Source of the DNA: Deltaproteobacteria bacterium
GTDB lineage: Bacteria; Desulfobacterota; DSM-4660; Desulfatiglandales; HGW-15
DNA length: 64,000 nt
Direction of reading: 5' to 3'
Assembly (NCBI GenBank): GCA_020060215.1
Contig: JAGVAP010000063.1
Coordinates: 19,091 to 83,090, forward strand
Shown: positions 5,937 through 34,297 of the stretch, piece by piece
Layout of the letters: every line of letters starts with the position of its first letter
How positions within the stretch are numbered: position 1 is the stretch's first letter
Notes under the pieces: model-generated
Told to the model about the DNA's origin: nothing
The model's database searches: none
What the model saw: only the letters and a program-made list of their open reading frames with translations
Made by a program: the position numbers and the translations under genes

Positions 5937-5969
5937 CCTAATCGTATCCTAACAATACCGTTCCATAAT
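5937..5969 (+). promoter_or_regulatory. Pho-box promoter for the membrane protein gene
   Basis: CCTAAT at 5937 and CCTAAC at 5948 are direct repeats at an 11-bp period, followed after exactly 10 bases by CATAAT (5964-5969), a 5-of-6 match to a -10 box. It points to the gene at 6061. The same layout recurs at five other places here. Confidence 0.75.
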
Positions 5970-6060
5970 CCGAAGTCCAGCCATAGAAGATGAACGGCTT
6001 CTTTCGTGATATACACGAAGGGAGCATCGAAAAGGATCTGCATCGTTTAGGAGCCGACCG

Positions 6061-6510
6061 ATGGAGACAAGAATCGCGACCAGGCCGATGCCGTACATCC
6101 TTTTCACGGTCCTCTTGGGATCGCCCGGGACAGCCTTTATAGTCGGCTACCTGAAGACCTGGAATGTTTATTACCTGTCTGCAGGCCTGCTGTGTGCAGT
6201 CCTGATCGTCTGCGTTTTTCTCTGGCTATCTCACTACCGGATCGAGTTCTCGGACGATCGCATTACCGTAGGACGACTTGCCGCCATGAAGCGATCCTTG
6301 CGCCGCGATGAAATCGAGGAATGGTACACGGTCGTTGGATTGCTGGACCGTGAGGGCCGCGTGGGATCCCTTTTGCGGATGGTCATAGAGCCCACACCCT
6401 CGAGCGGGCAGAAGCCCTTCGTCATCCCGCTGCGCTTCTTCACTCCCGGAGATATTCAAGTGCTGGAGATGCTTCTCCCGGAAGGACGAAGGGCCCGTTC
6501 TGAGGAATGA
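6061..6510 (+). CDS. two-helix membrane protein with PH-like cytoplasmic domain
   Basis: 149 residues. Two hydrophobic segments (about 11-30 and 35-58) form a hairpin, followed by a soluble part beginning YRIEFSDDRITVGRL that has the look of bacterial PH-like (bPH/YdbT-type) domains. AGGAG stands 8 bases before the ATG. Function unknown. It is preceded by one of the best Pho-box promoters in the window, so it is probably induced on phosphate limitation. It runs opposite to phoH on one side and converges on the response regulator gene on the other, so it is a single-gene unit. Confidence 0.75.
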   Translation: METRIATRPMPYILFTVLLGSPGTAFIVGYLKTWNVYYLSAGLLCAVLIVCVFLWLSHYRIEFSDDRITVGRLAAMKRSLRRDEIEEWYTVVGLLDREGRVGSLLRMVIEPTPSSGQKPFVIPLRFFTPGDIQVLEMLLPEGRRARSEE

Positions 6511-6554
6511 GAATGGGTTGGGATGGAGCGCAGATGCCCATGTAGGTCCGCAAT

Positions 6555-7250
6555 CTAATCCAGGGGCTTGAAGCGGTACCCCACGCCCCTGATCGTCTCG
6601 ATGTTTTCTCCTGCGCCGGCGAGCTTCTTTCGCAGCCCCACGATCTGCACATCCACGGATCGATCGGTGACCGCATACCCCGAACCGCGGATATGTTCAT
6701 TGATTTGAGCCCGGGTGAAAACCCATCCCGGTTTCTGCGCCAGGAAGCTGAGAATGCAGAACTCGCTCAACGTCAGATGGACGGGCTTGCCTTCCACCCT
6801 GACTTCCTGACGCCTAACATCGACTTGGATTCCATGCCCATTCACCTGGAGTGGCTGGTCCTCATTAGCCTTAGACGCCTTCCTTCGCAGGACCGCCCGG
6901 ATTCTTGCGATAAGAACCTTGGGATTGAAGGGTTTCGGGACGTAATCGTCGGCCCCGATTTCCAGACCGGTAATGATGTCCGTGTCGTCGCCCTTGGCGG
7001 TCAACATCACGATAGGGATGTCTCCGGTGGAGGCATCGGACTTCAGTATTCTGGTCACCTCGAAGCCGTCCATACCGGGGAGCATGAGATCCAGCAGGAT
7101 GAGGGAGAAGCGATTGATTCGCACCATGTGCAACGCCTCTTCGCCGGAGGCCGCGCACCGGACTTCGTACCCCTCCTTCAAGAGATGGTGCTTGAGTAAT
7201 TGGAGGATGTCCTCCTCATCGTCTACCACCAGTAGATTTGCCTTTTTCAT
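6555..7250 (-). CDS. phoB: PhoB/OmpR-family response regulator
   Basis: 231 residues. A receiver domain with the acidic pair DDEED near the N-terminus, phospho-acceptor in LILLDLMLPGMDGFEV, conserved Lys in YVPKPFNP, then an OmpR-type winged-helix DNA-binding domain ending RGVGYRF. Start ATG 7250 follows AGGACAGGGAA. It lies downstream of pstS on the same strand, so it probably shares the Pho-box promoter at 8390-8422. That context and the local regulon make PhoB the best name; other OmpR-family members cannot be excluded from sequence alone. No PhoR kinase gene is adjacent. Confidence 0.88.
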   Translation of the reverse strand: MKKANLLVVDDEEDILQLLKHHLLKEGYEVRCAASGEEALHMVRINRFSLILLDLMLPGMDGFEVTRILKSDASTGDIPIVMLTAKGDDTDIITGLEIGADDYVPKPFNPKVLIARIRAVLRRKASKANEDQPLQVNGHGIQVDVRRQEVRVEGKPVHLTLSEFCILSFLAQKPGWVFTRAQINEHIRGSGYAVTDRSVDVQIVGLRKKLAGAGENIETIRGVGYRFKPLD

Positions 7251-7410
7251 TTCCCTGTCCTTGGGAAAGACCTGCTTTCTCTTCCTCCATGGGTTCCCGC
7301 CGGAGGAACTGCTCACGTATTATCCTGAACCGGATCGACAGTCCTCTTGATATCAGCAGATCGTGATCCGCTTTGGAAGATGCAGGAAGAAACGGGAGAG
7401 TACACGAGAG

Positions 7411-7442
7411 GGCAGGAGAAGCCCTTCTGAGCACCTCCTGCC
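7411..7442 (-). promoter_or_regulatory. stem-loop between pstS and phoB
   Basis: A perfect 8-bp stem, GGCAGGAG (7411-7418) with CTCCTGCC (7435-7442), begins 26 bases below the pstS stop. No T-run follows, so read-through into phoB is likely. It may stabilise the upstream pstS message or attenuate the downstream gene. Confidence 0.55.
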
Positions 7443-7467
7443 CCATCGGGAACAGGTCTTTGAACCA

Positions 7468-8298
7468 TCAATACAGCGGCACAAACCCAGCTTCCGCGAC
7501 ATACTTCTGTCCCTTCTGGGGGTGGACCATGAAGTTGATGAAGTTCAGGGTATCGCCTTTGGGCCATCCCGGCGTGAACATGTAAAGGGCGCGGCTGATC
7601 GGATAAGTGCCGTTCAGGGTGGTCTCAGCGCTGCCGGCGACGCTTTCCACCTTGAGCGCCTTTACCTCCTTGCTGACATAGCCGATCCCGATGTAACCCA
7701 CGGCGTTCTTGTTCTTGGAAACGGCCTGGACGATCGCCCCGTTCGAGGCCTGGAGCAGCGCCCCAGGGAAAACTACGCCCCCCTTCAGCACCTTTTCCTC
7801 CCAAACCTCGTAGGTCCCGGAGGAGGTGTCCCTGGAGATCACGACCACCGGGCTGTCGGGGCCCCCGATCTCTTTCCAGTTCTTCACTTCCCCTTTGTAG
7901 ATCTTCGCAAGCTGATCCAAGGTGATGTTGCTCAGCGTATTGCTGGGGTGCACAACGGGCACGATGCAGTCATAGGCGACGGCGAATGGAACGGGGTAGC
8001 GGCCCTTTTGGACTGCAAGGGCGACCTCCTTGTCCTTGATGAACCGGGAGCTGTTTGCGATGTCGGTGGACCCGTCCACCAGGGCCTTGATCCCGTTCCC
8101 GGAGCCCCCTCCCTCCAGCGAGATCTTCACGTCCGGACGCTGCTTCATGTAGGCCTCCGCCGCCTTTTGCGCCACCGGGAGCACGGTCGTCGAACCCTTG
8201 ATCACGAGGTTTCCTGCCCAGCTCGGGTTGCCGGCAATCAGCAGGCCTGCGAAAGCCGCTACGGACGCAATCCATTTCATCTTCATCTTCATTTTCAT
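7468..8298 (-). CDS. pstS: phosphate ABC transporter substrate-binding protein
   Basis: 276 residues with an N-terminal signal peptide (hydrophobic VAAFAGLLIAG, cleavage after SWA) and a PstS-like/PBP_like_2 fold: IKGSTTVLPVAQ, ISLEGGGSGNGIKAL, ISRDTSSGTYEVW and IGYVSKEVKAL. It captures phosphate in the periplasm. The start region is the repeat MKMKMKMKW, giving four in-frame ATG codons in a row; the first follows GGAGAAAGAGAAA. Pho-box promoter at 8390-8422. No pstC, pstA, pstB or phoU is nearby, so the permease must lie elsewhere. A second, distinct pstS lies at 17555. Confidence 0.92.
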   Translation of the reverse strand: MKMKMKMKWIASVAAFAGLLIAGNPSWAGNLVIKGSTTVLPVAQKAAEAYMKQRPDVKISLEGGGSGNGIKALVDGSTDIANSSRFIKDKEVALAVQKGRYPVPFAVAYDCIVPVVHPSNTLSNITLDQLAKIYKGEVKNWKEIGGPDSPVVVISRDTSSGTYEVWEEKVLKGGVVFPGALLQASNGAIVQAVSKNKNAVGYIGIGYVSKEVKALKVESVAGSAETTLNGTYPISRALYMFTPGWPKGDTLNFINFMVHPQKGQKYVAEAGFVPLY

Positions 8299-8389: not shown

Positions 8390-8422
8390 AAAATATTTGG
8401 TTTTCATTAGGAAGAGATTAGG
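8390..8422 (-). promoter_or_regulatory. Pho-box promoter for pstS-phoB
   Basis: Minus strand: CCTAAT (8422-8417), 5 bases, CCTAAT (8411-8406), 10 bases, TATTTT (8395-8390). Two identical half-sites at an 11-bp period in front of a phosphate-binding protein gene make this the anchor for calling the motif a Pho box. Confidence 0.8.
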
Positions 8423-8585: not shown

Positions 8586-9185
8586 CTATGTTTGCCCGAT
8601 GTTCGCCCGGAGAATCTTGAGCCCCTCTTCACGAGCGCGAAGGAGCCTCTGAATTTCGATCCCCCTCAGTTCCTCACGCGACTGGAGAAGCCCTTTCAAC
8701 GCGTTCCTGTAAATGAGGTATTCCGCTTTTGCGGAGATGTTCGGTTCCACTTGTTGGGTGAACAGGAATTCGCCTATGGGCCGGTTTTTCCCATTCCGAT
8801 TCCCCTCGGTCAGGTCGACCCTCCGTCCCTCGAACTCCAGAAAGCAGTGGATCATGGGAACATAGGGGAGTGCGTATTCGGCCGTGATCCGCCCGGTCCC
8901 GGTGACGATCGCCTCGGTCATGGCGTAGATGCCGACATCCTTAAAGGTCGGCAGCCCCAGTTCCCGGGCAAGGGTTGCGATGGTTGCGTGCTTCGTGGTG
9001 CACGTCCCCATCCGCTCCTTGAAAAGGATCATCGGGTCGTCCCTGTCGGAGTTGTAGCCGTATGGCAGTTCGTGGACATATCGGCACGCCTCCATAAAAC
9101 GATAAAATCCCAAGAACCGAAACGTGTCGGATATCGCTCCGCCTCTATGAATCCCCGTGTCCGGGAAGATAGTATACGGGTCCAT
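8586..9185 (-). CDS. transglutaminase-like cysteine protease-fold protein
   Basis: 199 residues with a transglutaminase-like core: Cys62 in RMGTCTTKHATIA, His113 in MIHCFLEFEG and Asp124 in RRVDLTEG form a plausible catalytic triad. No signal peptide is visible, so it is probably cytoplasmic. GGGAGAAATCG precedes the ATG. It follows a 101-residue unknown gene by 12 bases, and both probably use the Pho-box promoter at 9577-9609. Members of this fold act as proteases or amide-forming enzymes; the substrate is unknown. The reading frame stays open for 46 more codons after its TAG stop (see findings). Confidence 0.75.
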   Translation of the reverse strand: MDPYTIFPDTGIHRGGAISDTFRFLGFYRFMEACRYVHELPYGYNSDRDDPMILFKERMGTCTTKHATIATLARELGLPTFKDVGIYAMTEAIVTGTGRITAEYALPYVPMIHCFLEFEGRRVDLTEGNRNGKNRPIGEFLFTQQVEPNISAKAEYLIYRNALKGLLQSREELRGIEIQRLLRAREEGLKILRANIGQT

Positions 9186-9197: not shown

Positions 9198-9503
9198 TCA
9201 GTTGATTTCAGTTTCCTCAGTGGGTTCGCGGTCGAGCAGTTGCTCGCGAAGCGCCCTGAAGACCTCGACATCCTCCTGCCGCACCAGAGATGTCCTGACT
9301 CCATATCGAAGATATTGAATAAGCTCCTTGATCAGCTCTGGATATCGGGAGCAGCTCCCGTTCTTCGGGGACTCCCCTCTCATTCGGAACCGAAGTCGTT
9401 CGGCCTCGGTTGCCTCCTTGTCGGCCAAACCGATCACATCAAGGTAATCCCTGGTCTGGATCGCCTCTATGAACTGGCGCAGATCGCATTTTGGAGAAAT
9501 CAT
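9198..9503 (-). CDS. hypothetical protein, first gene of Pho-box pair
   Basis: 101 residues, soluble, charged, predicted mostly helical (ELIKELIQYLRYG...). I do not recognise the family. GAGAGGATG stands before the ATG. It is the first gene after the Pho-box promoter and is followed 12 bases later by the transglutaminase-like gene; a shared role, such as substrate or regulator, is possible but unproven. Confidence 0.65.
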   Translation of the reverse strand: MISPKCDLRQFIEAIQTRDYLDVIGLADKEATEAERLRFRMRGESPKNGSCSRYPELIKELIQYLRYGVRTSLVRQEDVEVFRALREQLLDREPTEETEIN

Positions 9504-9576: not shown

Positions 9577-9609
9577 AACATATCAGTCAATTGTTAGGTC
9601 TGTGTTAGA
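9577..9609 (-). promoter_or_regulatory. Pho-box promoter for transglutaminase-like pair
   Basis: Minus strand: TCTAAC (9609-9604), 5 bases, CCTAAC (9598-9593), 10 bases, TATGTT (9582-9577). It fits the same layout as the pstS and phn promoters. The rest of the 9504-9913 gap holds no gene I can support; GTAGTGAGA occurs twice at 9741 and 9754. Confidence 0.7.
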
Positions 9610-9913: not shown

Positions 9914-10231
9914 ATGAAACTCATCTCATTGCCTGGAGACATTGTCGGCGGAGTTGCCATTGGAGCCGCAGCGGTGATCCTGGGTCCGGTTCTTCTTCCC
10001 GTTGCATCGGGCATACTGAAGTCCTTTGCCAAGATCGCAATCAAGGGGGGGCTGATCGCGTACGAAAGAGGCAAGGTTGCAATGGCAGAGGCCCAGGAAG
10101 CGGTAGAGGATATCACCGCCGAAGCCAAGGCGGAGCTCTCCGAGGAAGAGACTGCGGTCTCCGCTCCCAGGAAGAAGCGACCGGCTGCATCCAGGTCCAG
10201 GAAAAAGGCCGTGGCCGATGTCCCTGCCTGA
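9914..10231 (+). CDS. DUF5132-like small membrane protein
   Basis: 105 residues. An N-terminal hydrophobic stretch (about 8-38, VGGVAIGAAAVILGPVLLPV) is followed by a helical amphipathic part and a Lys/Arg/Ala-rich tail. This layout matches the DUF5132 proteins that sit next to HMA_2-domain proteins and P-type ATPases in other bacteria. Ribosome site GAGAGGTAAGC before the ATG. It overlaps the next gene by 14 bases, and with it begins a four-gene operon. Function unknown; association with the ATPase is inferred from context. Confidence 0.7.
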   Translation: MKLISLPGDIVGGVAIGAAAVILGPVLLPVASGILKSFAKIAIKGGLIAYERGKVAMAEAQEAVEDITAEAKAELSEEETAVSAPRKKRPAASRSRKKAVADVPA

Positions 10232-10718
10232 TGCGCAAATCGGCCATTTTGCACCGAGCAGATTGCGAATCAGGATACCCTCCCGGAGAAAGGACCACCG
10301 GTATTTCGAGCGACTTCGCGGGGAGTTTCTGCGGCTTGAAAGCCTTGAGCGAGTTGAGGTGAACCCGGTCACGGGAAGTGTTCTTCTCACGGGAAGTCGC
10401 CTGGATCCCGTGGCCGTCGAGAACTACGCCAGGAGTCAGGGACTTTTCGACCTCCGGCAAAAGAAGCCCTCTTCCGCTCCTGTGACAAGGACCATCGTCG
10501 AACCCCTGGGGACGCTTAGCTCCGGCCTCAAGCGTATCACAGGCGGCCGGCTGGATCTGCCCGGACTTGTCTTCATTCTCCTATTGGCATCGGGTATTTC
10601 TGAAATCATTAAGGGCAACTTCAGGGCGCCTCCTTGGTACACGGCCTTCTGGTATGCCTTCGGCGTCTTCACTAAATCGCTGGTCGACATGGTCCACAAA
10701 TCGGACGAGGCTGCATAG
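10218..10718 (+). CDS. HMA_2-domain membrane protein
   Basis: 166 residues. The N-terminal half has the signature PSRLRIRIPSRR, followed by LERVEVNPVTGSVLLTG, which is the ferredoxin-like HMA_2 fold lacking the metal-binding CxxC of classical HMA domains. The C-terminal part has one or two membrane segments (LVFILLLASGISEI and TAFWYAFGVF). The start ATG lies inside the end of the upstream gene. It probably works with the adjacent P-type ATPase, whose own N-terminus carries the same domain type. A related soluble HMA_2 protein is at 15909. Confidence 0.72.
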   Translation: MSLPDAQIGHFAPSRLRIRIPSRRKDHRYFERLRGEFLRLESLERVEVNPVTGSVLLTGSRLDPVAVENYARSQGLFDLRQKKPSSAPVTRTIVEPLGTLSSGLKRITGGRLDLPGLVFILLLASGISEIIKGNFRAPPWYTAFWYAFGVFTKSLVDMVHKSDEAA

Positions 10719-10742
10719 TACAGGGGCTTCGATTCGGAAGGC

Positions 10743-13700
10743 ATGTATTCCTTGGTTCGCGCCGTTCACACCAATGTTCCGGGTCGTGCCCGGTACAGCG
10801 TTGATGGTCTTTTCGGGTCGGAATCCCTGAAACAATCGCTGGAGTCCCGCCTCGCATCGCACAAGTTCATCTCCCATGTCTCCGCCAGCACCGTTACGGG
10901 AACAGTTCTAGTCCTCTACCATTCCGGCAACGGCAATGACTATCGCACCATAGGCCGCCTGGTCCGGAAGGCGGTCCGGGAAAACCGGAATTCCGGTGAG
11001 GAGCTTCCCGCGAAGCCTCCTTCGTCGCCGCTGCCTCCGGGTTCCGGAATTATCGGCAAGGCACCGGCCGCCCTCAAGGAGGGGATAAGCTGGCTCCTTC
11101 CCAAACAGGTGGAGCAGGAGCAGCATCCCTGGCACCTCATGGACGAGGAAGAGGCCCTTGCCCTCACGGGGACTTCCAGGGAATCGGGTCTCACGGCCGG
11201 AACGGCCTTGGCGCGGTTGGAGAGATACGGTCCCAACCTCCTTCCCGAATCCGTGCCACAATCCCAATGGCGGCTTTTCATTAACCAGCTCAAGTCGCTC
11301 CCCGCGCTGCTTCTGGCTGTGGCGGCTGGGCTATCCCTGGTTACCGGCGGACTACTCGAGGCTGCGGTCATCCTGGGAGTGCTCGGTGCGAACGCCTTGA
11401 TCGGATATGCAACGGAGCGGACGGCGGAAAAGACGATCCACTCCCTGAAGAACGGCGTGCGCCCGAGGGCGGAGGTGATCCGCGACGGCGTGGTGAGGGA
11501 AATCCCGGCCGAGCAGGTGGTTTTCGGCGATCTCTTTGTGCTGAAACCCGGCACCTATGTATCCGCCGACTGCAGGATCCTGGAGGCAGGACACCTGAGC
11601 ATCGATGAATCGGTTCTCACCGGCGAGAGCATGCCCGCTTTGAAGGCACCGGGGGTTCTCAAGAGAGCGAACACGCCGTTGGCCGATCGCACGAACATGG
11701 CCTTCATGGGCACCCTGGTGACGGGCGGTGAGGGCCTTGCCGTGGTGGTTTCCAGCGGCCGATTTACGGAGACGGGTCGACTCCAGATCCTCATGGGGGA
11801 GACGAGGGCGCCCGAGACGCCCATCGAAAGGCAATTGAGAACGCTGGGGAACCAGCTCGTGATTCTATGCAGCGTCATCTGCGGCGCCGTGTTCGTGATC
11901 GGTTTTCTGAGAGGCCATGGCCTTCTCCAGATGTTGCGCTTTGCCGTTTCCCTTGCCGGTGCCGCTGTGCCTGAGGGTCTCCCCGCCGCCGCCACCGTCA
12001 ATTTCTCTCTCGGTGTTCGGAGCATGAGACGGGACCATGTCCTGATCCGGCGGCTCCAGGCGATCGAGACGCTGGGCGCCGTTCAAACGGTTTGCTTCGA
12101 CAAGACGGGCACCCTGACCTGCAACCGCATGTCCGTGAACAAGATTTTTGCGGGAGGCAGGGAAGTCGAGATGCGGAACGGCCATTTCCTGGTGCAAGGA
12201 GAGCCCCTGGACATCAGAACCGTTGAAGAGGTGATGCAGCTTATTTTCGCGTGCGCCCTCTGCAACGAGGTAAAGGTGGAGGGGGGCGACGGAAGGGGGA
12301 AATACGTCCTCAGGGGGTCGCCGACGGAAAACGCGTTGATCCATCTCGCACTGAAGGCGGGGCTGGACCTGAACCGGCTCCGTTGTGAGTACCCCGTACT
12401 CAAGGCGGACCATCGATCCGAGGCGAGGCTCTTCATGAGCACGCTCCACAAGACCCCCCTTGACGGCCAAAGGCTCTTGGCGGTAAAGGGAAGCCCGACC
12501 GATGTCCTCTCTCTTTGCGCATTCGAGATGAAGGGGGGACGGGTGCTTCCGCTTGGCGAGCAATCCAGGCTGGAGATCGAGCAGACCAATGACCGAATGG
12601 CGGAGGATGCCTTGCGCGTTCTCGGGGTCGCCTATGCGAGGCCTGAGCCGGGGAAGGAGAAATCGAAATCCAATGGGCCACTGACATGGCTGGGGCTGGT
12701 GGGGATGGAGGATCCGCTCCGGGAAGAGGCCAACCATCTGGTCAAGACCTATCAGCGGGCGGGGATCAGGACCATCATGATCACCGGCGATCAGAGCCCT
12801 ACTGCCGCAACGGTAGCCAGGCAGCTGGATCTGAGCAGGGGCGAGAACCTCGAGATCCTGGACTCCTCGTCCCTCACGAGCGTGGACCCTCAGGTCCTGA
12901 GCGCCCTGGCCCGGAAGGTCCACGTGTACTCCAGGGTCACCCCGTCCAACAAGCTCCAGATCGTTCAGGCCCTGCAGCGGGCGGGGCAGGTGGTGGCCAT
13001 GACCGGCGACGGCATCAACGACGGACCGGCGCTCAAGGCCGCGGACATCGGTATCGCGATGGGGCGGAGCGGCACGGATGTGGCAAGGGAGGTCGCCGAC
13101 ATCGTGCTGGAGAAGGACAACCTGGAAAGCCTCATCATTGCGGTGCGGGACGGCCGAACGACCTATGCCAACATCCGAAAGTCGGTTCATTTTTTTCTCT
13201 CCACCAACCTCACGGAAATCATGGTCATGTTCTCGGCCCTGGCCGCCGGCATAGGGTTCCCCCTGAACGTGATGCAGCTTCTCTGGATCAACCTCATGTC
13301 CGACATCTTTCCGGGTATCGCGCTCTCCATGGAGGCCGCGGAGCCGGATATCCTGGAACGACCGCCAAGGAATCCGATCGAGCCCCTCCTCTCTTCCAGG
13401 GACTTTAAACGAATGGCATTCGAGTCGGCGATCATCAGCGCCGGATCCCTGGGTGCTTATGCCTACGGAATCTCGAGGTACGGGATGGGGGCAAGGGCAG
13501 GCTCTATAGCGTTTCACAGCCTGACCGCGGCCCAGATCCTTCATGCCGTCAGTTGCCGATCGGAGAGGCGGAGCATCTTCGACAGAGTCCAGCCCCCGCC
13601 AAACCGGTCTCTTTTCCTCGCAATAGGCGGATCGCTTGTGCTCCAGGCCCTTGCGGGACTGGTTCCGGGCCTCCGCAGCCTTCTCGGCTTGACCCCTCTG

Positions 13701-13793
13701 AGCCTCATCGATGCCGCGGTGGCGGGGGCGGCGGCGGTCCTGCCGCTGACGGCCAATGAGGCCACGAAAAAGAGGAAGGGGGTGAAGGAATGA
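10743..13793 (+). CDS. P-type cation-translocating ATPase with N-terminal HMA_2 domain
   Basis: 1016 residues. It has an HMA_2-like N-terminal domain (HTNVPGRARYSV...), a cation-ATPase N-terminal domain, TGES at 293-296, the membrane motif PEGLPA at 410-415, phosphorylation site DKTGTLT with Asp453, and the hinge TGDGINDGPALK from 754, with C-terminal membrane helices. The PEGLPA motif is that of P2-type pumps (calcium-like), not the CPC motif of heavy-metal pumps, so this is a hybrid of HMA-like N-terminus and P2-type core, resembling the mycobacterial CtpI/CtpH kind. Transported ion unknown. Its stop overlaps the next gene's ATG (ATGA). Confidence 0.92.
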   Translation: MYSLVRAVHTNVPGRARYSVDGLFGSESLKQSLESRLASHKFISHVSASTVTGTVLVLYHSGNGNDYRTIGRLVRKAVRENRNSGEELPAKPPSSPLPPGSGIIGKAPAALKEGISWLLPKQVEQEQHPWHLMDEEEALALTGTSRESGLTAGTALARLERYGPNLLPESVPQSQWRLFINQLKSLPALLLAVAAGLSLVTGGLLEAAVILGVLGANALIGYATERTAEKTIHSLKNGVRPRAEVIRDGVVREIPAEQVVFGDLFVLKPGTYVSADCRILEAGHLSIDESVLTGESMPALKAPGVLKRANTPLADRTNMAFMGTLVTGGEGLAVVVSSGRFTETGRLQILMGETRAPETPIERQLRTLGNQLVILCSVICGAVFVIGFLRGHGLLQMLRFAVSLAGAAVPEGLPAAATVNFSLGVRSMRRDHVLIRRLQAIETLGAVQTVCFDKTGTLTCNRMSVNKIFAGGREVEMRNGHFLVQGEPLDIRTVEEVMQLIFACALCNEVKVEGGDGRGKYVLRGSPTENALIHLALKAGLDLNRLRCEYPVLKADHRSEARLFMSTLHKTPLDGQRLLAVKGSPTDVLSLCAFEMKGGRVLPLGEQSRLEIEQTNDRMAEDALRVLGVAYARPEPGKEKSKSNGPLTWLGLVGMEDPLREEANHLVKTYQRAGIRTIMITGDQSPTAATVARQLDLSRGENLEILDSSSLTSVDPQVLSALARKVHVYSRVTPSNKLQIVQALQRAGQVVAMTGDGINDGPALKAADIGIAMGRSGTDVAREVADIVLEKDNLESLIIAVRDGRTTYANIRKSVHFFLSTNLTEIMVMFSALAAGIGFPLNVMQLLWINLMSDIFPGIALSMEAAEPDILERPPRNPIEPLLSSRDFKRMAFESAIISAGSLGAYAYGISRYGMGARAGSIAFHSLTAAQILHAVSCRSERRSIFDRVQPPPNRSLFLAIGGSLVLQALAGLVPGLRSLLGLTPLSLIDAAVAGAAAVLPLTANEATKKRKGVKE

Positions 13794-25665: not shown

Positions 25666-25735
25666 CCCGGATGAAGCCGCGTACTATGGTGATTGTTCTA
25701 CATGGTACAGCTTTAGAGATCCGTGGAAAGAATAA

Positions 25736-26632: not shown

Positions 26633-27496
26633 TCAAAGACCTGTCGCGAAGGATTCGATGGCCGCCCTGAAATCCGTGGCTCCTGCCGTCACCCTCCATT
26701 GGTCTTTCCCGGTCTCGACCGCATGGACAAATCCTCCCGCCTCTTCCACCAGGATTTTGCCCGCCGCAAAATCCCAGGGTTTGATGCCCTCGTACATCAG
26801 GCCGCCCAGGTACCCGGCTGATACATAGGCCAGCTCGGCCGCCGCCGCTCCCAGGCAACGCACCTTTCTCACCCGTGGCAGCAGCAGGCCGAGCCGCTCG
26901 GTCATACACTGCATCGTCTCCCGCGTCTTGCCGAAACTGACCGCCATGACCAAGTCATGGGTGTCTTCCGCTCCAGTTACTCGAAGTGGACGGCCGTTCA
27001 TCGTGGTCCCCCGGCCGCGAACTGCAGCATAGATCTCCTGCATGAAGGGAAGGTAGACGACCCCCGCCACCGGCGTTCCGAATATGGACGAACTCCTTCC
27101 GATCTCCCATTCATTTTCGTTGTTGGCAGGATTCCTGTAGCAGGCGACCGACACGCAGAAGAGCGGCAACCCTTGCCAGAAATTGACTGTCCCATCCAGG
27201 GGATCCACCACCCAGAGATATTCTCCCCGCCCCGAACATTGGCCTGTCTCCTCGGCAAGGATGGAATGATCCGGGAAGGCTTTTCCGATCGTCGAACGGA
27301 TGGCTTCCTCACAAACCAGGTCGGTTTCGAGCTTCACATCGTAGAGCAACCGCGTGCACTGCGTCGGCCCCTTGCGGAAGTGATCCATTTGGATCGCCCC
27401 GGCGATTCGGGCGGCATCCACGGCGGTGTCATAAATCCTATCGATCAGTGATGTCGACAAAGCGCACCTTTTGTCATCTGTAGCGCACAGTTCCAT
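26633..27496 (-). CDS. inositol monophosphatase-family phosphatase in phn operon
   Basis: 287 residues from ATG 27496 (GGAGGGAGAGT just upstream). It has the metal-site motifs of the IMPase/CysQ/FBPase superfamily: ILAEETG, WVVDPLDGTVNF and IKPWDFAAGKILVEEAGG. It starts 13 bases below the phnM stop, so it is the distal gene of the C-P lyase operon. Such enzymes remove phosphate from inositol, nucleotide or sugar phosphates. With no phnN or phnP present, it may dephosphorylate a ribose phosphate product of the pathway and release phosphate; that is inference. An in-frame upstream extension would run back into phnM and is rejected. Confidence 0.88.
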   Translation of the reverse strand: MELCATDDKRCALSTSLIDRIYDTAVDAARIAGAIQMDHFRKGPTQCTRLLYDVKLETDLVCEEAIRSTIGKAFPDHSILAEETGQCSGRGEYLWVVDPLDGTVNFWQGLPLFCVSVACYRNPANNENEWEIGRSSSIFGTPVAGVVYLPFMQEIYAAVRGRGTTMNGRPLRVTGAEDTHDLVMAVSFGKTRETMQCMTERLGLLLPRVRKVRCLGAAAAELAYVSAGYLGGLMYEGIKPWDFAAGKILVEEAGGFVHAVETGKDQWRVTAGATDFRAAIESFATGL

Positions 27497-27509
27497 ACTC
27501 TCCCTCCTG

Positions 27510-28694
27510 TCAGCTGCCGGCGCTGAAGACCTCTCGCCCGTGGACGAAGGTCTTGCAGATCTTCGCCACCTTTTGGCTGTCGTCCACCAGCACCAGATCG
27601 GCGGCCTTCCCCGTTTCGATAGACCCGACCACCCGATCGATGCCCGCACCCTTCGCCGGGTGAAGAGTGATCAACCGCACGGCCTCGGGCAAGGTCCGGA
27701 GCCCTTCCTTGTGGAGGTGAAGGGCGGCGTGGAGAAGGGACATCGGGGCGTAATCGGAGCAGAGGATATCCCCCAGTCCGTCGTTCAGGGCGTCGCGGCC
27801 GGAGAGATTCCCGGTAAGCGACGCGCCGCGAAGTACATTAGGCGAGCCCAGGGAGATCAGCATTCCATGGCGGCGAGCGGCACGGGCTGCCTCCAGGTTG
27901 ACCGGGAACTCGGAGAGGGTCACACCCAGACGGTTTGCCTTTTCCACCTTCCCCGCGGAATCGTCGTCGTGGCTCGCCATGCGCACGCCGTTCTCGCTGC
28001 AGGTGCGGCCAAGCTTCGCGAGCCGCTCCCAGTCGACCCTGCTGCCGACCTTCAGCCGCTGCTCGATCATCTCCTCCACCTGGTCCTGCGTCAGACCGCG
28101 TGATTTGGAGTAATAGGCACGGAAGTTCGCTACATCGGAGAACTGGCCCTGCCCGGGGGTGTGATCCATGATCGAGAAAAAATGGATGAGCTTCTTCCGG
28201 ATCAGCGTTTCGACGTCATCGAAGTTTGCGCTGTTGGTGATCTCGTAGCGCGCGTGGACCCGGGTCCGGGCCTTTAACCCGGACTGCAGGTCGTGGATCT
28301 GCCGGACCAGGTAATCGGTCGTCTCGGCATTCCGAAAGGCTGGCTGCTCGTCGGGGGGCAGGAAGCAGAGACAGTGATAGATGGTCGTCACCCCGCAGGC
28401 GACCAGCTGTTTGTCCAGCTCGTGAAGGGCCACGTCCACCGGGAACCGGCCGCCCGGCCTCGGCTGAATCGCATTCTCGATGGCGTCGCTGTGGATGTCG
28501 ATGAACCCCGGCATCAGGAGACGGTTGCCGGCGTCGATCTCCTCCAGTCCTTGACAGCGGGTGCCGTTCGAGCTGATCTTGCCGATAACGCCGTCCTCCA
28601 CGATGACGGAAGACCCGGGAAGCACTTGCTCCGGTGTGACTACGCGGGCATTCCGGATGATCATGCCCCTGTTCTCCGAATTCTTGTCTTTCAT
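27510..28694 (-). CDS. phnM: alpha-D-ribose 1-methylphosphonate 5-triphosphate diphosphatase
   Basis: 394 residues of the amidohydrolase superfamily. Metal motif GFIDIHSDAIE, then FSIMDHTPGQGQF, MASHDDDS, SEFPVNLEAA and LCSDYAPMSLLHAA, all typical of PhnM. It removes diphosphate from the ribosylated phosphonate before C-P cleavage. AAAGGAACGACGCC precedes the ATG. It sits between phnL and the phosphatase on one transcript. Confidence 0.95.
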   Translation of the reverse strand: MKDKNSENRGMIIRNARVVTPEQVLPGSSVIVEDGVIGKISSNGTRCQGLEEIDAGNRLLMPGFIDIHSDAIENAIQPRPGGRFPVDVALHELDKQLVACGVTTIYHCLCFLPPDEQPAFRNAETTDYLVRQIHDLQSGLKARTRVHARYEITNSANFDDVETLIRKKLIHFFSIMDHTPGQGQFSDVANFRAYYSKSRGLTQDQVEEMIEQRLKVGSRVDWERLAKLGRTCSENGVRMASHDDDSAGKVEKANRLGVTLSEFPVNLEAARAARRHGMLISLGSPNVLRGASLTGNLSGRDALNDGLGDILCSDYAPMSLLHAALHLHKEGLRTLPEAVRLITLHPAKGAGIDRVVGSIETGKAADLVLVDDSQKVAKICKTFVHGREVFSAGS

Positions 28695-28751
28695 GGCGTC
28701 GTTCCTTTGCAGTAGTCGTTCAGAACAGAAACTTCGTTTACCGATAAAGGG

Positions 28752-29435
28752 TCACTCCTTTGCCGGCATATGGTAGATCTCGTCCACCAGCGAATCCATG
28801 ATCGAGCGGTCGTGGAAGACGGCCACCAGGGTCGTCCCGCCGGCCTTGATCTCCGAAAGGAGTTCGAGAACCACGCGGATGCTGTCGGGATCGAGGCTCG
28901 CCGTCGGTTCGTCCAGCAACAGCAGCCGGGCGGGGCGTATGACCGCCCGGGCCAGGTTCACCCGTTGTTTTTCTCCTCCGCTGAAGGTGCATGGATAAGC
29001 ATTGTGAAGCCCCTTTTGGATCCTCAGCCGGTCCAGTAGCGAGCGGGCCTGTTCGCGCGCCTCCTCCCGGGAAACGCCCGAGAGCACCAGCGGCTCGGCC
29101 ACCACGTCGATCGCAGACACCCTCGGCAGGACCGACAGGAATTGGGTGACATACCCCATCTCGGCCCTTCTGAGGTGCAGGACCTCGTTCTCGGGAAGGG
29201 AGGTCAGGTCGATCCGGCCGTAGGATTCCGAGTCAAAGAGGATGCGCCCGGAGCTTGCGCTGTAGGTGCGGTAGATGCATTTGAGGACCGAGCTCTTGCC
29301 GTGCCCGCTGGGGCCGGCCAGTCCCAAGGCTCTTCCTGCCTCCACCCGGAAGGAGATCCGGCGGAAACCGACGATCTCCTTGCCGTCGAGCACGTGTGAA
29401 GTGAACCTCTTTTCCAGATCTATGATGTTGAGCAT
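28752..29435 (-). CDS. phnL: C-P lyase ABC-type protein PhnL
   Basis: 227 residues from ATG 29435, which follows AAGGAGCAAT; an in-frame extension upstream enters a repeat element and is rejected. Walker A GPSGHGKSS, the signature FSGGEKQRVNLARA, Walker B LLLLDEPTASLDP and H-loop VAVFHDRSIMD. PhnL is an ATP-binding partner needed with PhnG, H, I for the first ribosyl-transfer step. A palindromic element separates it from phnK. Confidence 0.94.
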   Translation of the reverse strand: MLNIIDLEKRFTSHVLDGKEIVGFRRISFRVEAGRALGLAGPSGHGKSSVLKCIYRTYSASSGRILFDSESYGRIDLTSLPENEVLHLRRAEMGYVTQFLSVLPRVSAIDVVAEPLVLSGVSREEAREQARSLLDRLRIQKGLHNAYPCTFSGGEKQRVNLARAVIRPARLLLLDEPTASLDPDSIRVVLELLSEIKAGGTTLVAVFHDRSIMDSLVDEIYHMPAKE

Positions 29436-29467
29436 ATTGCTCCTTGGAGCTTGGAACTCACTTTGAG

Positions 29468-29617
29468 CAGGTTGCCAAAAGGCGGCTAGATGCAAGTTGT
29501 GCCGTTTCAATCCCGCTATTCGCGGGGGCTCCCGATGTCCCAAGGCGTACTGGAAAAGTACGTCGCAGCGACGCGGGTCAAGGGCAACGCAGCAGATGGG
29601 CGCTTTTTGGCAACCTG
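29468..29617. repeat. 150-bp palindromic element between phnK and phnL
   Basis: Terminal inverted repeats of 13 bp, CAGGTTGCCAAAA (29468-29480) and TTTTGGCAACCTG (29605-29617), enclose a structured core that holds a second hairpin, CGTAC (29546-29550) with GTACG (29558-29562). It encodes nothing visible and is too small for a transposase. It looks like a non-autonomous (MITE-like) or REP-type dispersed element inserted in the operon. It fills most of the 184-base gap. Confidence 0.7.
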
Positions 29618-29619
29618 AT

Positions 29620-30495
29620 CTAAAGCATCGAGCTCACCAGCAACTGCGTGTAGGGATGTTGCGGGTCCTCCAGGATCTGATCCGAGAGCCCCTGCTCCAC
29701 AATGCAGCCGTGGCGCATCACCAGGGTCCGCGAGGTCAGCAGCCGGATGACCCCGAGGTCATGGGAGACCACGACCGTGGCGATCCCCAGCTCCTGCTGC
29801 AGGGACCGGATGAGGTCCAGGACCCGCGCCTGCACCGACACATCCAGGCCGGTCGTCACCTCGTCGAGCAGCAGCACGGCCGGGTGGGTCGAGAGCGCCC
29901 TTGCGATCTGGACCCGCTGCTGCATTCCACCGGAGAAATGGCGGGGAGGCTCATCCACCCTCTGAAGAGGGACCTCGGTCTTCACGAGGAGCCCGGCCGC
30001 CCTCTCGCGCATGCAGCCGACATGGCGCCACCCGGCCATCAGGAGCCGTTCGGCTATGTTCCCGCCTGAGCTCACCTTCAGGCGCAGCCCCATACGGGCA
30101 TTCTGATACACGATGCCCATCAGCTCGTTCCGCACCTGGCGTCGATGAAAGCCGGAAAGCGCAAAGAGGTTCTGCCCGGACTGAACCGCCTCCCGGGCGG
30201 TTGGTTCGAGACCCTCCTGTGCATGGCCGTTGAGGCAAAGGAGGAACTCCCCGGCGGTGGGCTCGAAATCGAAATGAAGGAGCCGCACCACCGTGCTCTT
30301 GCCGGAGCCGCTCTCCCCGACGATCCCCAGCACCTCTCCCGGGCAGAGGCTAAAGGAGACCTCGCGGCAAGCGAGCACCGACCGGCATCTCGGGCATTGA
30401 TTGGTCTCTCGATCGGCCCCCGTAAGCTCCAGGCATTGCGGGCAGCCCTTTCCGTAGCGCTTGGTCAGGTTCCGGACTTCCAGGATGGGCTTCAC
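29620..30495 (-). CDS. phnK: C-P lyase ABC-type protein PhnK
   Basis: 291 residues starting at GTG 30495, overlapping the phnJ stop by GTGA. Walker A GESGSGKST, signature FSGGMQQRVQIARA, Walker B LLLDEVTTGLDVSVQ and H-loop VVVSHDLGV. Between the first strand and the Walker A is an insert with CPQC (18, 21) and CPRC (34, 37), a probable zinc ribbon absent from E. coli PhnK. PhnK docks on the PhnGHIJ core complex. Confidence 0.94.
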   Translation of the reverse strand: MKPILEVRNLTKRYGKGCPQCLELTGADRETNQCPRCRSVLACREVSFSLCPGEVLGIVGESGSGKSTVVRLLHFDFEPTAGEFLLCLNGHAQEGLEPTAREAVQSGQNLFALSGFHRRQVRNELMGIVYQNARMGLRLKVSSGGNIAERLLMAGWRHVGCMRERAAGLLVKTEVPLQRVDEPPRHFSGGMQQRVQIARALSTHPAVLLLDEVTTGLDVSVQARVLDLIRSLQQELGIATVVVSHDLGVIRLLTSRTLVMRHGCIVEQGLSDQILEDPQHPYTQLLVSSML

Positions 30496-31421
30496 CTCTG
30501 CGCCTCCCCCGGATCTTCACTCCGCAGGGCAGCACCCTTTTCGCAGTAAGAGGTGTCCGAGCAGGCATAGGTTCGAAGTCCGGTCGCATCGTCGATAAGC
30601 TCATCCAGGTATGTCCCCTCGGAACCGCAGCGGCTGCATCGCCGGCCTGCGAAGCATTCCACCCGGAAAGCGAAATCCTCGAAGGAGAGCGGCTGCACCT
30701 CCGTGTGCGGCGGGATCGCATAGATCCGCTTCTCGCGACCGGCGCAGAAGAGGAGGAGGGCGGGATTGTGGTTCAACCTGGGCAGGTCCCAGCGCGGGAT
30801 CGGGCTCGGGTCCATGAGGTGACGCCGGTTCACCATGACGGGGTAGCGGGCGCCCACGGTGATCTCCCCGAACTTGACGATCTCTTCATAGAGGTAGAGC
30901 CACATGCGGCTGTAGTCAGCCTCCGCATGCATCCGGCGCGTCTTCTGCTCGGAAGGCTCCACCAGCCGGAGCGGCTCCGGGATGGGCACTTGAAAGACGA
31001 GGATCTGTTGCGGCTGGAGGGGCTCCTCCGGGATGCGGTGCCGGGTCTGGATCAGGGTGGCCTCTGTCGTGTCCGTGGTGGTCTGCACGCCCGCCACTCG
31101 GGTAACGAACTTCTTGATGTTGACCGCGTTGACGCTGTCGTCGGCCCCCTGGTCGATGACCTTCAGCACGTCTTCCGGGCCGATCAGGGAAAGGGTCAAC
31201 TGGAGCCCGCCGGTGCCCCACCCGCGGGCGATGGGCATCTCCCGGGACCCGAAGGGGACCTGATGGCCCGGGATGGCCACGGCCTTGAGCATCCGGCGTC
31301 GGATCTCGCGCTTGGCCCCTTCGTCCAGAAAGGCATAAGCGTACGAGTTCTCGGAAGGAGTAACGGCCTCCCTCCAGTCCGGCTGCGGTAAGGGTTTTGC
31401 GGGGGAGCCCACCGGTTTCAT
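30492..31421 (-). CDS. phnJ: C-P lyase, radical SAM PhnJ
   Basis: 309 residues from ATG 31421, which overlaps the phnI stop (ATGA); a longer frame inside phnI is rejected. It breaks the carbon-phosphorus bond of ribose 1-phosphonate 5-phosphate. The noncanonical cluster cysteines are intact: Cys262, Cys265, Cys287 and the catalytic Cys293, spaced CX2CX21CX5C exactly as in E. coli PhnJ. The N-terminal YAYAFLDEGAKREIRR block and ARGWGTGGLQLT are also typical. Confidence 0.96.
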   Translation of the reverse strand: MKPVGSPAKPLPQPDWREAVTPSENSYAYAFLDEGAKREIRRRMLKAVAIPGHQVPFGSREMPIARGWGTGGLQLTLSLIGPEDVLKVIDQGADDSVNAVNIKKFVTRVAGVQTTTDTTEATLIQTRHRIPEEPLQPQQILVFQVPIPEPLRLVEPSEQKTRRMHAEADYSRMWLYLYEEIVKFGEITVGARYPVMVNRRHLMDPSPIPRWDLPRLNHNPALLLFCAGREKRIYAIPPHTEVQPLSFEDFAFRVECFAGRRCSRCGSEGTYLDELIDDATGLRTYACSDTSYCEKGAALRSEDPGEAQR

Positions 31422-32521
31422 GATTCGTTCTCCTCTTTCGGGGACCGGCCGGCCCGGATGTGCCGCAACCGGTCCAGCTCGGATTGAAAGGTGACGTAAT
31501 GGGGGAGCTTGTAATGGTTGCAGAAGCCCATGGATTCGATTCCGTCCACATGGGTCAGGACGAATTCCTGATCCTCGGAGGGGGCCTCCGGCTCGCTGCC
31601 GGACATGGCCCGATCGAGCACCGCCATGGCAATGGCCTTGGTTTCGTTGTGGCCGAAGCAAAGCCCATAGCCCAGGCTGAACACGGCCGGTCCCTCTCCA
31701 TCCGCAATGCGGGAGATGACCTCGGCCTCGGTCACCTGGATCTCACCGATGCATTCCACCCTTCCGGTGGCCGGGCTCTTCAGGTTCACGGGCAGAAACC
31801 CGACCCTCAGCTCGCCGATCGCAGGGTGGACCGACCCGTAGCCGCGCATGTTGGAGTAGGCGAGGGCGAGCAGTCCGCCGGTCTCGCCTCGTGTCAGGGT
31901 CTGGAGCTGGGCGCTTCGGGCGGCCGGAAAGGTCAGGGCCTGGCGCGTGACGTCGGCGGGAGGTTCCTCCGTTTTTGAAGATTGATCGCGGCCGACCAGG
32001 AGCCCTTCGGCCCGGAGCATCTCCACGATCTTTGGGAACCGCTCCGGTAAGGGATCCAGTCCGTCGATGTCTTTCAAGAACTGCTCGATCTCGGCCCGGG
32101 TGCGGGATGCCGATTCGTTCTTCAGCGAGAAGTCTAGCAGACGCAGGGTATAGTCCCTCGTGGGGCCGAGGACCTGCCCCCCGGGAATGTCCTTGAACGC
32201 GGCGGAGATCCTCCGGATGACCCGCATCCCGTCCGTTGCGACCGGCTCCGTGTAGCCCAACCTCGGGAGTGTGGTGCGGTACGAGCGCAGGATGAAAGCC
32301 GCCTCAAAGGTGTCGCCGGCCGCCTGTTTGAATGCGAGGGCCGCCAGGTCGGGCGCATAGAGCGAGCCCTCGCCCATCACCCGGTCGACGGCCAGGTGGA
32401 GCTGCTCCCGGATCTCATCGACCTTCAACGGCGCACCGCTTCCGTCGGCCCTCCGCAGCAGACTGAATCTCTCCGCGTTCTCGATGGCGGCTTCCCCTCC
32501 CCTCACGGCTACGTAACCCAT
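31418..32521 (-). CDS. phnI: C-P lyase core subunit PhnI
   Basis: 367 residues, family-typical start MGYVAVRGGEAAIENAE and the C-terminal block LDRAMSG...DQEFVLTHVDGIESMGF...HYVTFQSELDRL. It carries the nucleosidase/ribosyl-transfer role in the PhnGHIJ complex. Four bases separate it from phnH and it overlaps phnJ, so translation is coupled. GAGGTGATCC stands before the ATG. Confidence 0.96.
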   Translation of the reverse strand: MGYVAVRGGEAAIENAERFSLLRRADGSGAPLKVDEIREQLHLAVDRVMGEGSLYAPDLAALAFKQAAGDTFEAAFILRSYRTTLPRLGYTEPVATDGMRVIRRISAAFKDIPGGQVLGPTRDYTLRLLDFSLKNESASRTRAEIEQFLKDIDGLDPLPERFPKIVEMLRAEGLLVGRDQSSKTEEPPADVTRQALTFPAARSAQLQTLTRGETGGLLALAYSNMRGYGSVHPAIGELRVGFLPVNLKSPATGRVECIGEIQVTEAEVISRIADGEGPAVFSLGYGLCFGHNETKAIAMAVLDRAMSGSEPEAPSEDQEFVLTHVDGIESMGFCNHYKLPHYVTFQSELDRLRHIRAGRSPKEENES

Positions 32522-32525
32522 AGGA

Positions 32526-33095
32526 TCACCTCAACTGAATGCGGCAGGAGCGGGGGATGCACATCACACTGCCGTCTTTCCGGACGAAGACCGCGTCCAC
32601 CCCCATCGGGTACTCGGCGTTTGCAGTCTGGAGCGCCCTTAGGTCCTCCGGGCCGATTCCGCTCATTTCCGGGGAGATCCCCTCTTTCCCCGGAATGCCC
32701 GGGCCGACCAGACGGACCCGGCAGCGGTCCAAGCCGTCTGTCCCGGGTTCGTTCACGCATGAGATCAGCGTGGCGCCCTCTTCGGGAGACTCCGGGGTCC
32801 CGCGCTTTGCCTCCATGATGGCTCTGCCGGTGCCCCTGGAGGCAAAAATAAAATCCGCCTCCTGAAGGCCGGCGGCCCGGGCACCCGTGGCGCTAATCAT
32901 CGCCGGCTTCATGGCATCTTCTCCGAACACGCAGAAGCTGACCTCCTGATCCAGGAGGCACCTGGCGATCGCAAGGAACGGAAAGAAAGGCGACTCCTCA
33001 CGCTCTTCCTTTTCCAGGCGAAACACCCTGCCAGGGCGGCTCATCGCCTGGAGCAGGATGCGGTAGCAGCGCCGGTTGAGGTGGACGTCTTTCAT
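32526..33095 (-). CDS. phnH: C-P lyase subunit PhnH
   Basis: 189 residues with the family's NRRCYRILLQAMSRPGRV start and the C-terminal EYPMGVDAVFVRKDGSVMCIPRS block. It is a structural member of the core complex. AGGACTCCCCCC-type spacing separates it from phnG by 16 bases. All subunits lie in the order G, H, I, J, K, L, M known from E. coli. Confidence 0.95.
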   Translation of the reverse strand: MKDVHLNRRCYRILLQAMSRPGRVFRLEKEEREESPFFPFLAIARCLLDQEVSFCVFGEDAMKPAMISATGARAAGLQEADFIFASRGTGRAIMEAKRGTPESPEEGATLISCVNEPGTDGLDRCRVRLVGPGIPGKEGISPEMSGIGPEDLRALQTANAEYPMGVDAVFVRKDGSVMCIPRSCRIQLR

Positions 33096-33111
33096 GGGGG
33101 GGAGTCCTCCT

Positions 33112-33591
33112 TCAGCCCAGAGAGCCGAAAAATGCCGTTTCTTTTCTCATGGAATCGAAACGGACTCTGGTTGCAGCGGCCACCTTTGAGGAGAGTGCCT
33201 GCCGCTCCGCATTCACCCGCTCCAGTTGCTCGATGAGTTTTCGAATATCGTTGAGGCTGCCGCACTTCCCGCTCCGCTCGACGGCCTCCACGGCGGCGAG
33301 GAGCAGCGCCGTCTCCGGACGGTCGCCGCAGATGACCCCGCCCCCCTTTTGCCCGTCGAAGGCGACTTCGGCGGTCGTTACCAGCACCTCTCCCAGGTAA
33401 AAGGGGGTGCCGAAAGGATCCAGCACGCTGTACATGAGCATCCCCGCCTGCGGCGGTCTCACGACCGTGAACCCTCCCACCACCCAAAGCCGGTCCAGGG
33501 CGGTTGCCACCGTCTCGGCATCCGCCGCAGCGATCACCCGCAAGAGGTCCGCCTTCACGCCCCCCTCAATCCTCTTTTTCAGCTCATGCAT
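33112..33591 (-). CDS. phnG: C-P lyase subunit PhnG
   Basis: 159 residues from ATG 33591 (a TTG at 33600 is an alternative with too short a ribosome-site spacing). Family features: [33 protein letters not shown] and the [17 protein letters not shown] block. It joins PhnH, I and J in the core complex. The start overlaps the stop of the acyltransferase gene (ATGCATGA), so the two are coupled. Confidence 0.94.
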
Positions 33592-34234
33592 ATTTTTCAA
33601 TGAACCTCCCCAGGTCAGAGAAATCCTCGAACCGCTCCTCCAGGGTGGCGCGATCCCAATCCCACCAGGCTATCTTCAGTAGACGGTCCACGATTTTACG
33701 CTCAAACCGCATCCGCAACGGTCTCGCAGGCACCCCGGCCACCACCTGATAGGGCCGCACATCGCGGGTGACCACCGCCCCGGCCCCAATGACGGCGCCG
33801 GTACCGATCTCGACCCCGGCCATGATCTTGGCTGCGGTGCCGATCCACACGTCATGGCCGATGCGGCACCTGCGGCGCCGTCTCGAGTCGAAAAGGGTCT
33901 CGTCGTCCGTATCCGAGAAACCGTAGCGTTTCCGGCGGTAGGTGCAATGATGCTGGGTGACGCGCTCCATGGGGTGGTCGCCGGGATTGATCGACACGTG
34001 GGAGGCGATGGAGCTGAATCTTCCTGTATCCGTGTAGATCACCGTTCCGTCCGACCCGGCAAGATAGCTGTAGTCCCCCAGGGAGGACTCGATCACGGTC
34101 CAGTTCGGGCCGATATCCGTGTAGAGCCCTATGCCCGAGTCTTTGACGACCGCAGAAGGATCGATCTGCGGCTCTGATCCATCCGCTGCCGCAGCAGTCT
34201 TCAATGTAAGGATTTCAATGGACATGGGCCTCAT
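33584..34234 (-). CDS. hexapeptide-repeat acyltransferase, phosphonate-operon type
   Basis: 216 residues from ATG 34234, with AGGAGG 5 bases upstream. Left-handed beta-helix hexapeptide repeats ([27 protein letters not shown]) and the chloramphenicol/xenobiotic acetyltransferase pattern [13 protein letters not shown] with catalytic His in [10 protein letters not shown]. This is the phn-associated acyltransferase family often found with phnGHIJ. It may acetylate aminoalkylphosphonates, the role of PhnO in E. coli, which has an unrelated fold. First gene of the lyase operon, directly behind a Pho-box promoter. Confidence 0.87.
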
Positions 34235-34253
34235 CCAAGCCTCCTGAACAAGG

Positions 34254-34297
34254 ATCATGCCCGCGGATCGTTAGGAAAAGGTGAGGCCGAGGTTAGA
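34254..34297 (-). promoter_or_regulatory. three-repeat Pho-box promoter for the C-P lyase operon
   Basis: Minus strand: TCTAAC (34297-34292), CCTCAC (34286-34281) and CCTAAC (34275-34270) at 11-bp steps, then 10 bases, then CATGAT (34259-34254). The predicted start leaves a very short leader before AGGAGG of the first gene. Confidence 0.78.

Follow-up and report, generated by a model that had tools for sequence, protein, structure and literature searches.

An 11-bp CTAAY direct repeat as a probable Pho box in Desulfobacterota and other, mostly uncultured, bacteria

Which regulator reads the YCTAAY repeats found in front of phosphate and phosphonate genes in a 64,000-nucleotide stretch of Deltaproteobacteria bacterium DNA (GenBank assembly GCA_020060215.1, contig JAGVAP010000063.1, positions 19,091 to 83,090; hereafter referred to as the window)? 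A first-pass annotation had described six promoters carrying in-phase YCTAAY copies with a period of 11 base pairs (bp), and had interpreted them as a local Pho box. The repeats are very probably a Pho box, common to many mostly uncultured bacteria, and we are confident in assigning them to the pst-linked PhoB-like regulator encoded at 6555-7316, with proposed activation of pst and phn targets. The probability attached to the Pho-box reading derives from an unbiased hexamer count, a scan with a matrix trained outside the window and enrichment upstream of phosphate genes. The six candidate boxes are:

5937 to 5953, plus strand: Pho box 1, CCTAATCGTATCCTAAC, with a degenerate half-site CACCTTAT upstream; -10 CATAAT; faces the orphan open reading frame (ORF) 6061-6510; matrix score 31.0
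8406 to 8422, minus strand: Pho box 2, CCTAATCTCTTCCTAAT; -10 TATTTT; faces pstS-phoB; matrix score 22.8
9593 to 9609, minus strand: Pho box 3, TCTAACACAGACCTAAC; -10 TATGTT; faces ORFs 9198-9503 and 8586-9185; matrix score 27.6
16624 to 16640, minus strand: Pho box 4, TCTAATCTTTTTCTAAC, with a third copy, GCTAAT, upstream; -10-like AATCAT; faces a short zinc-ribbon-like ORF and the HMA_2 gene 15909-16277; matrix score 22.0
22780 to 22796, plus strand: Pho box 5, CCTAATCGGGCCCTAAT; -10 TAGCAT; faces phnC-phnD-phnE-DUF1045; matrix score 15.9
34270 to 34297, minus strand: Pho box 6, TCTAAC-CCTCAC-CCTAAC in phase; -10 CATGAT; faces the carbon-phosphorus (C-P) lyase operon; matrix score 21.8

All six boxes are present on direct reading, as in-phase arrays with an 11-bp period (first bases of the pairs at 5937+, 8422-, 9609-, 16640-, 22780+ and 34286-). 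Two adjacent YCTAAY copies were found in five of the six, as annotated, but box 34286- is looser, its copies lying 22 bp apart with CCTCAC between them. The annotated distance of exactly 10 bases to a hexamer of the form NANNNT was confirmed at every site, and three of the six hexamers listed above start with T. The sites are also oriented as annotated, towards pstS-phoB, phnC, the C-P lyase operon and further units. The gene list made in this analysis gives a coding share of 85% for the window, and the six boxes, like the further arrays at 17291, 17451 and 5858 described below, are all intergenic with respect to the called genes. The -10 of box 6 overlaps the mechanical ORF start at 34258; the true start of this first ORF is likely to be the ATG at 34234, which is preceded by AGGAGG.

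The window was scanned with a matrix whose 50 training sites all came from other genomes, and 60 versions of the window generated by a second-order Markov model served as the null. The best score in these null windows had a mean of 12.8, a 95th percentile of 16.0 and a highest value of 20.8. The top of the window ranking was occupied by 5937, 9609, 8422, 16640 and 34286 (31.0 down to 21.8), and 11 positions, corresponding to six distinct places, scored above 16, against 0.08 expected. Box 22780 narrowly misses this line, at 15.9; above 14, 0.3 matches were expected. With in-register shifts set aside, the next rank after the top five was held by 17291-, and the scan led to three further candidates:

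17275 to 17291, minus strand: further candidate Pho box, TCTCATGCACTCCTAAC, without a good -10; faces ORF 16853-17212; matrix score 19.1
17451 to 17478, plus strand: further degenerate candidate box, TCTAAT/GAACAC/TCCTAAC in phase, divergent from the 17291 box; faces the second pstS at 17555
5820 to 5858, minus strand: degenerate array, CCTTAC/ACTAAT/CCTCAT/CCAAAC in phase; faces the PhoH-PIN gene 4258-5712; matrix scores 15.0, 13.3 and 13.1

The scores of 17451+ and 17462+ (13.8 and 13.6) are close to the mean null maximum, and no convincing -10 was found for the 5858 array. The gene behind the four half-sites of this last 11-bp array, 4258-5712 (minus strand), encodes a PhoH-PIN fusion. A separate match at 59935+ (15.6), upstream of ORF 60441-61766, has no exact half-site and may be due to chance.

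The repeat was also found around related regulators. The 6555-7316 regulator and 15 homologues were aligned and used to search named genome records for related loci, and the best 80 of at least 575 relatives (52-63% identical) were kept. All hexamers recurring at a fixed spacing in these 80 loci were counted, with no motif supplied. At 11 bp, CTAACA was recovered 21 times (0.02 expected) and CCTAAC six times (0.01 expected). A spacing of 12 bp, a multiple of three, yielded GC-rich words of coding type (AGGCGA 12 times, versus 0.23 expected), spacings of 10 and 22 bp yielded weak words only, and CTAAC-like words were absent from those listed at 10, 12 and 22 bp. CTAAY pairs at 11 bp numbered 61, versus 0.89 expected. 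In an alignment of 55 sites (50 from outside the window), selected blind to the -10, bases 11, 12 and 16 past the last half-site were T, A and T with frequencies of.55,.78 and.64, respectively, indicating a -10 at the same place across these sites; weaker half-sites were visible one and two periods upstream of the aligned pair.

A search of 12 genomes to which these loci had led, for YCTAAYN5YCTAAY, gave 65 occurrences at period 11, in 11 of the 12 genomes, and 11 at period 12. Once overlapping or identical sites had been merged and three copies of one repeat in genome G012 dropped, 50 of the 55 distinct period-11 sites lay outside called ORFs of at least 100 amino acids, versus five of 11 period-12 sites, and an ORF start was found no more than 500 bp downstream of 38 of the 55. 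The sequence CCTAATAGTTCCCTAAT seems to be a dispersed repeat with no relation to Pho boxes; a single genome has five copies of it, at L094, L105 and three further places in G012. Among the 33 ORFs of at least 95 amino acids behind period-11 pairs (25 scanned with Pfam; six PhoB-like and two PstS recognised by sequence), there were 14 phosphate genes (six PhoB-like, four PstS-like, two PstC, one PHO4/Pit and one phn hexapeptide transferase), four porin genes and one gene for a P-type ATPase homologous to that of the window.

Enrichment was assessed on 1131 ORFs from 100 loci of the regulator class. Of 37 pstS genes, 14 had a CTAAY pair no more than 250 bp upstream (Fisher's test, 1.8e-14), as did 21 of 86 phoB-like genes (1.2e-15), versus 15 of 1008 other ORFs. 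The opening residues of these 15 point to pstC, phoU, pit or Na/Pi cotransporter genes in ten cases and to porin genes in three; Pfam supported four of these readings (PstC for L028/L097 and L045/L278, Porin_5 for L050/L282 and L054/L263) and gave no family for the porin-like protein of L036/L091. Similarly, CTAAY pairs occurred within 700 bp upstream of 11 of the 14 pstS homologues nearest to that of the window (the 14 best of 105 matches, some being one place under two locus identifiers). Pairs were also present upstream of homologues of ORF 9198-9503 (L107; 31% identity over 89 amino acids) and ORF 16853-17212 (L247; 36% over 89 amino acids), and of the hexapeptide transferase gene (L085; 69%). 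The targets common to the window and other genomes include a phn gene and a P-type ATPase gene. Around the regulator class, CTAAY pairs were found not only in Desulfobacterota but also in records bearing the titles Zixibacteria, Planctomycetes, Lentisphaerae, Calditrichota and others, most of them metagenome bins in which a misplaced contig is possible. The term "local" used in the first-pass annotation is therefore too narrow, but the Pho-box interpretation itself gains from the 11-bp repeats, the -10 geometry and the presence of the same half-site before phoB, pstS, pstC and pit elsewhere.

The boxes thus combine at least two direct repeats at 11 bp, a position about 10 bp before a -10, and a location upstream of pst, pho and phn genes. 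Their half-site is neither the E. coli CTGTCAT, as had been pointed out in the annotation, nor the Desulfovibrio (c/t)GT(n)AC. The proposed reader is:

6555 to 7316, minus strand: PhoB-like response regulator with a receiver domain and a winged-helix Trans_reg_C domain; recognition helix TDRSVDVQIVGLRKKL

The protein likely starts at a methionine 23 residues into the GTG reading. Its domains and its linkage to a pst gene are those of a PhoB-like regulator, its two best NCBIfam models are the PhoB models TIGR02154 and NF053854, and E. coli PhoB (3t72, 1qqi and 1gxp) occupies ranks 4-6 of 47 among the solved DNA-binding domains nearest to it. The recognition helix is DRSVDVQIVGLRKK in the window regulator versus DRTVDVHIRRLRKA in E. 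coli PhoB, and the motif DR[SA]VDVQ[IV]VGLR was present in all 121 sequences inspected (the query, its own entry and the 119 best of 7999 scored homologues). E. coli PhoB contacts bases through T194, V197, R201 and R219 (PMC3264566); the window regulator has a glycine in place of R201.

We therefore compared residue 201 (E. coli PhoB numbering) with the half-site in a sample of 148 genomes of the phylum of genome G001, from which 120 regions surrounding genes of the PhoB-like and PhoU types were taken. Repeats at 11 bp were scored whichever base preceded TNAY, the four bases being treated equally. By locus (majority base; 120 phylum regions, the 80 first loci and the window), Arg201 was accompanied by G in 13 of 14 cases and other residues by a base other than G in 45 of 46 (Fisher's test, 3.7e-11); by genome, in the phylum sample only, the corresponding values were 17 of 18 and 19 of 20 (1.6e-8). 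Neither count includes ties, regions lacking a recognised regulator or a site, or the one locus in which two classes occurred. In genomes without Arg201, Gly, Ser or Ala went with C in 11 and with T in four, and Asn or His with T in four and with G in one. Regions examined later added T-type sites for G143 (Asn) and G044 (His), and one T-type and one A-type site for G109 (His). Arg201 was predicted for five genomes with G-type sites in which the regulator had not yet been seen, and was found in all five (G135, the sixth genome of this prediction, is not included); this is weak evidence, since 15 of the 20 regulators of that batch had Arg201. The association of the half-site base with residue 201 (Arg with G, Asn or His with T, and Gly, Ser or Ala mostly with C) is thus strong across genomes, but corresponds to two or three independent contrasts: in a tree built with the helix masked, there were two on supported branches and three on all branches. 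It is consequently not established beyond common descent.

An exceptionless one-residue rule was abandoned, because it is broken by three Gly201 genomes with T-type sites (G024, G082 and G122), by a VHIQSVR regulator with T-type sites in G124, and by L195/G152, in which an RHLR regulator lies beside G-type sites (a second regulator there has RRLR, with Arg201). A looser code, in which residue 201 would set the base before TNAY in the PhoB-family regulators of this phylum and of relatives in several others, is a tentative proposal to which we give slightly less than an even chance. Such a code would not be universal, because RegX3 has an arginine at the equivalent place in our alignment and the Streptomyces box GTTCACC (PMC4415409) has, by our reading, T at the comparable position, and because the contact residues of SphR are described as highly conserved (PMC1906773), yet its box has T. 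The competing explanation for this part of the reading, that the boxes are Pho boxes but that their base reflects lineage descent or base composition, with residue 201 as a clade marker only, is a serious possibility that we would nevertheless not quite favour. It draws strength from the three Gly201 genomes with T-type sites and from the small number of contrasts, with which a sign test cannot reach 0.05. It accounts less readily for a change confined to one fixed base while TNAY, the spacing and the -10 remain constant, for the occurrence of Gly, Ser and Ala mostly with C across the helix backgrounds VQIVGLR, FHITSLR and LIVSLR, and for the base contacts of R201 in E. coli PhoB.

Several observations weigh against the assignment of the boxes to a PhoB encoded at 6555-7316. 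The protein falls below both PhoB equivalog cut-offs (221.9 of 296.2 bits for TIGR02154 and 230.4 of 270 for NF053854), and neither pstCAB nor an ordinary phoR was found among the genes scanned from 4258 to 37146, where a hybrid kinase was the only kinase seen. Within the main helix class, the strict rule yielded no site in 41 of 75 loci, and the same was true of 14 of the 23 Gly201 genomes. In the 12 genomes, a control with the pattern read backwards gave 82 occurrences with the 11-bp period and 126 with the 12-bp one. The 65 sites alone are therefore no excess over it; this control differs in word make-up (AATC, where the pattern has CTAA), and the genome-wide case lies in the spacing ratio (65:11 versus 82:126) and in the position before genes. 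Finally, no evident link to phosphate was seen for 14 of the 33 genes that follow period-11 pairs in other genomes. The first-pass annotation would have given up its reading if sites were as frequent inside genes or before unrelated genes; the location of 50 of 55 sites outside ORFs and the pstS and phoB enrichment speak for the reading, and these 14 genes speak against it. The low equivalog scores and the sites before such genes speak for the alternative that a different OmpR-family regulator, co-regulating pst and phn genes, owns the sites and the 6555 protein binds elsewhere. We consider this improbable, given the enrichment of sites before pstS and the phoB-like genes themselves, and the covariation, across genomes, of the half-site base with the recognition helix of the 6555-type protein. 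That the repeats are chance occurrences picked by eye has a negligible probability, for although the motif was chosen after the window had been seen and 22780, 17462 and 5858 score inside the range of the null maxima, the independent training set, the unbiased count and the period-12 comparison refute it for the set as a whole.

If the boxes are the Pho boxes of the 6555-7316 regulator, the mechanism may be proposed by analogy with the PhoB family, from which binding, phosphorylation and activation are taken. Under phosphate starvation, the phosphorylated regulator would bind head to tail to two to four in-phase YCTAAY copies. The 11-bp period would keep the half-sites on one face of the helix, the array ending 10 bp before the -10, and the bound protein would recruit polymerase to the adjacent -10 and activate sigma-70 promoters. 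The predicted targets are pstS-phoB (autoregulation), phosphonate uptake, the C-P lyase operon, several small genes and, probably, the second pstS. The C before TAAY, in place of the G of E. coli and Desulfovibrio, may be attributable to a regulator clade lacking Arg201 (Gly here), the residue that contacts bases in E. coli PhoB.

The Bacillus subtilis PhoP box is TTAACA-like, with repeats spaced by 11 bp and a TAACA core, but has T before TAAC, where the window boxes have C. The E. coli system resembles that of the window in its 11-bp direct repeats, the phosphate genes behind them and its winged-helix PhoB, and its Pho box lies 10 bp upstream of a sigma-70 -10, TAN3T/A (PMC1906773); it differs in its half-site (CTGTCAT versus YCTAAY in the window and its relatives) and its helix (VHIRRLR versus VQIVGLR). 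Desulfovibrio vulgaris is probably in the same phylum as the window bacterium. The box of its PhoB, DVU1083, (c/t)GT(n)AC (PMC3333781 and PMC6456213), was tested by gel shift, and also repeats at 11 bp. Its por site, AGGTTACAGCATAGTTAC (PMC6456213), reads on the other strand as G-type GTAAC-N6-GTAAC, the frame of CTAAC-N6-CTAAC, but G precedes TNAC there and C in the window boxes. The cyanobacterial SphR box, CTTAACCT (8+3 bp; PMC1906773), shares the 11-bp direct repeats and the TAAC core, but has T before TAAC and belongs to a different phylum. The E. coli KdpE site, TTTA(T/C)A, is read by an OmpR/PhoB-family protein with His at the equivalent of R201 and T as the comparable base (PMC3264566), but KdpE has a different helix and a potassium regulon. 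The consensus of Pho boxes is known to vary between species (PMC4415409). No description of a CTAAC-type box was found in the literature searched, most subscription journals and supplementary files lying outside the search; CCTAACTT does occur, as a single half-site, in a cyanobacterial site (PMC1906773). The CTAAC-type box thus appears to be an undescribed variant of a known signal, although this is not proof of its absence from the literature.

The genes behind the boxes are:

7468 to 8298, minus strand: pstS (above the TIGR02136 cut-off), which opens the pstS-phoB unit
17555 to 18616, plus strand: second PstS-like binding protein (PBP_like_2)
22856 to 26446, plus strand: phnC (TIGR02315 over cut-off) and genes for a phosphonate-binding protein, a permease and DUF1045
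26633 to 34234, minus strand: C-P lyase operon, with a hexapeptide transferase gene (TIGR03308 over cut-off), phnG, phnH, phnI, phnJ, two ABC ATPase genes, a phnM-like amidohydrolase gene and an inositol-phosphatase-family gene

The second ABC ATPase of the C-P lyase operon scores slightly under the PhnL cut-off. The best-scoring box precedes the orphan ORF 6061-6510 (plus strand, 149 amino acids), for which the protein collection held four homologues at an E value of 0.001, namely its own entry and three at 80-83% identity. The translation of the short ORF at 16277-16624 (minus strand), between Pho box 4 and the HMA_2 gene, is cysteine-rich and zinc-ribbon-like. Behind the weak box at 17451, the region 17555-22266 (plus strand) encodes the PstS-like protein, a hybrid histidine kinase whose sensor is a four-helix bundle, and a Cache-domain chemoreceptor, a cluster that possibly serves phosphate sensing or phosphate taxis. 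The DUF5132, HMA_2 and cation P-type ATPase genes at 9914-13793 (plus strand), the last with an HMA_2-like front, recur jointly in another genome, at L279, where the set adjoins a phnC homologue and CTAAC boxes precede the ATPase gene.

The motif may be used to predict regulons for phosphate and phosphonate across a large set of bacteria, most of them uncultured. It also provides natural variants for studying how the specificity of a response regulator and that of all its operators change jointly, a question rendered testable, by single-residue swaps, by the association with residue 201. If the code proves true, entire regulons would have changed dialect together, with their spacing and promoter geometry held constant.

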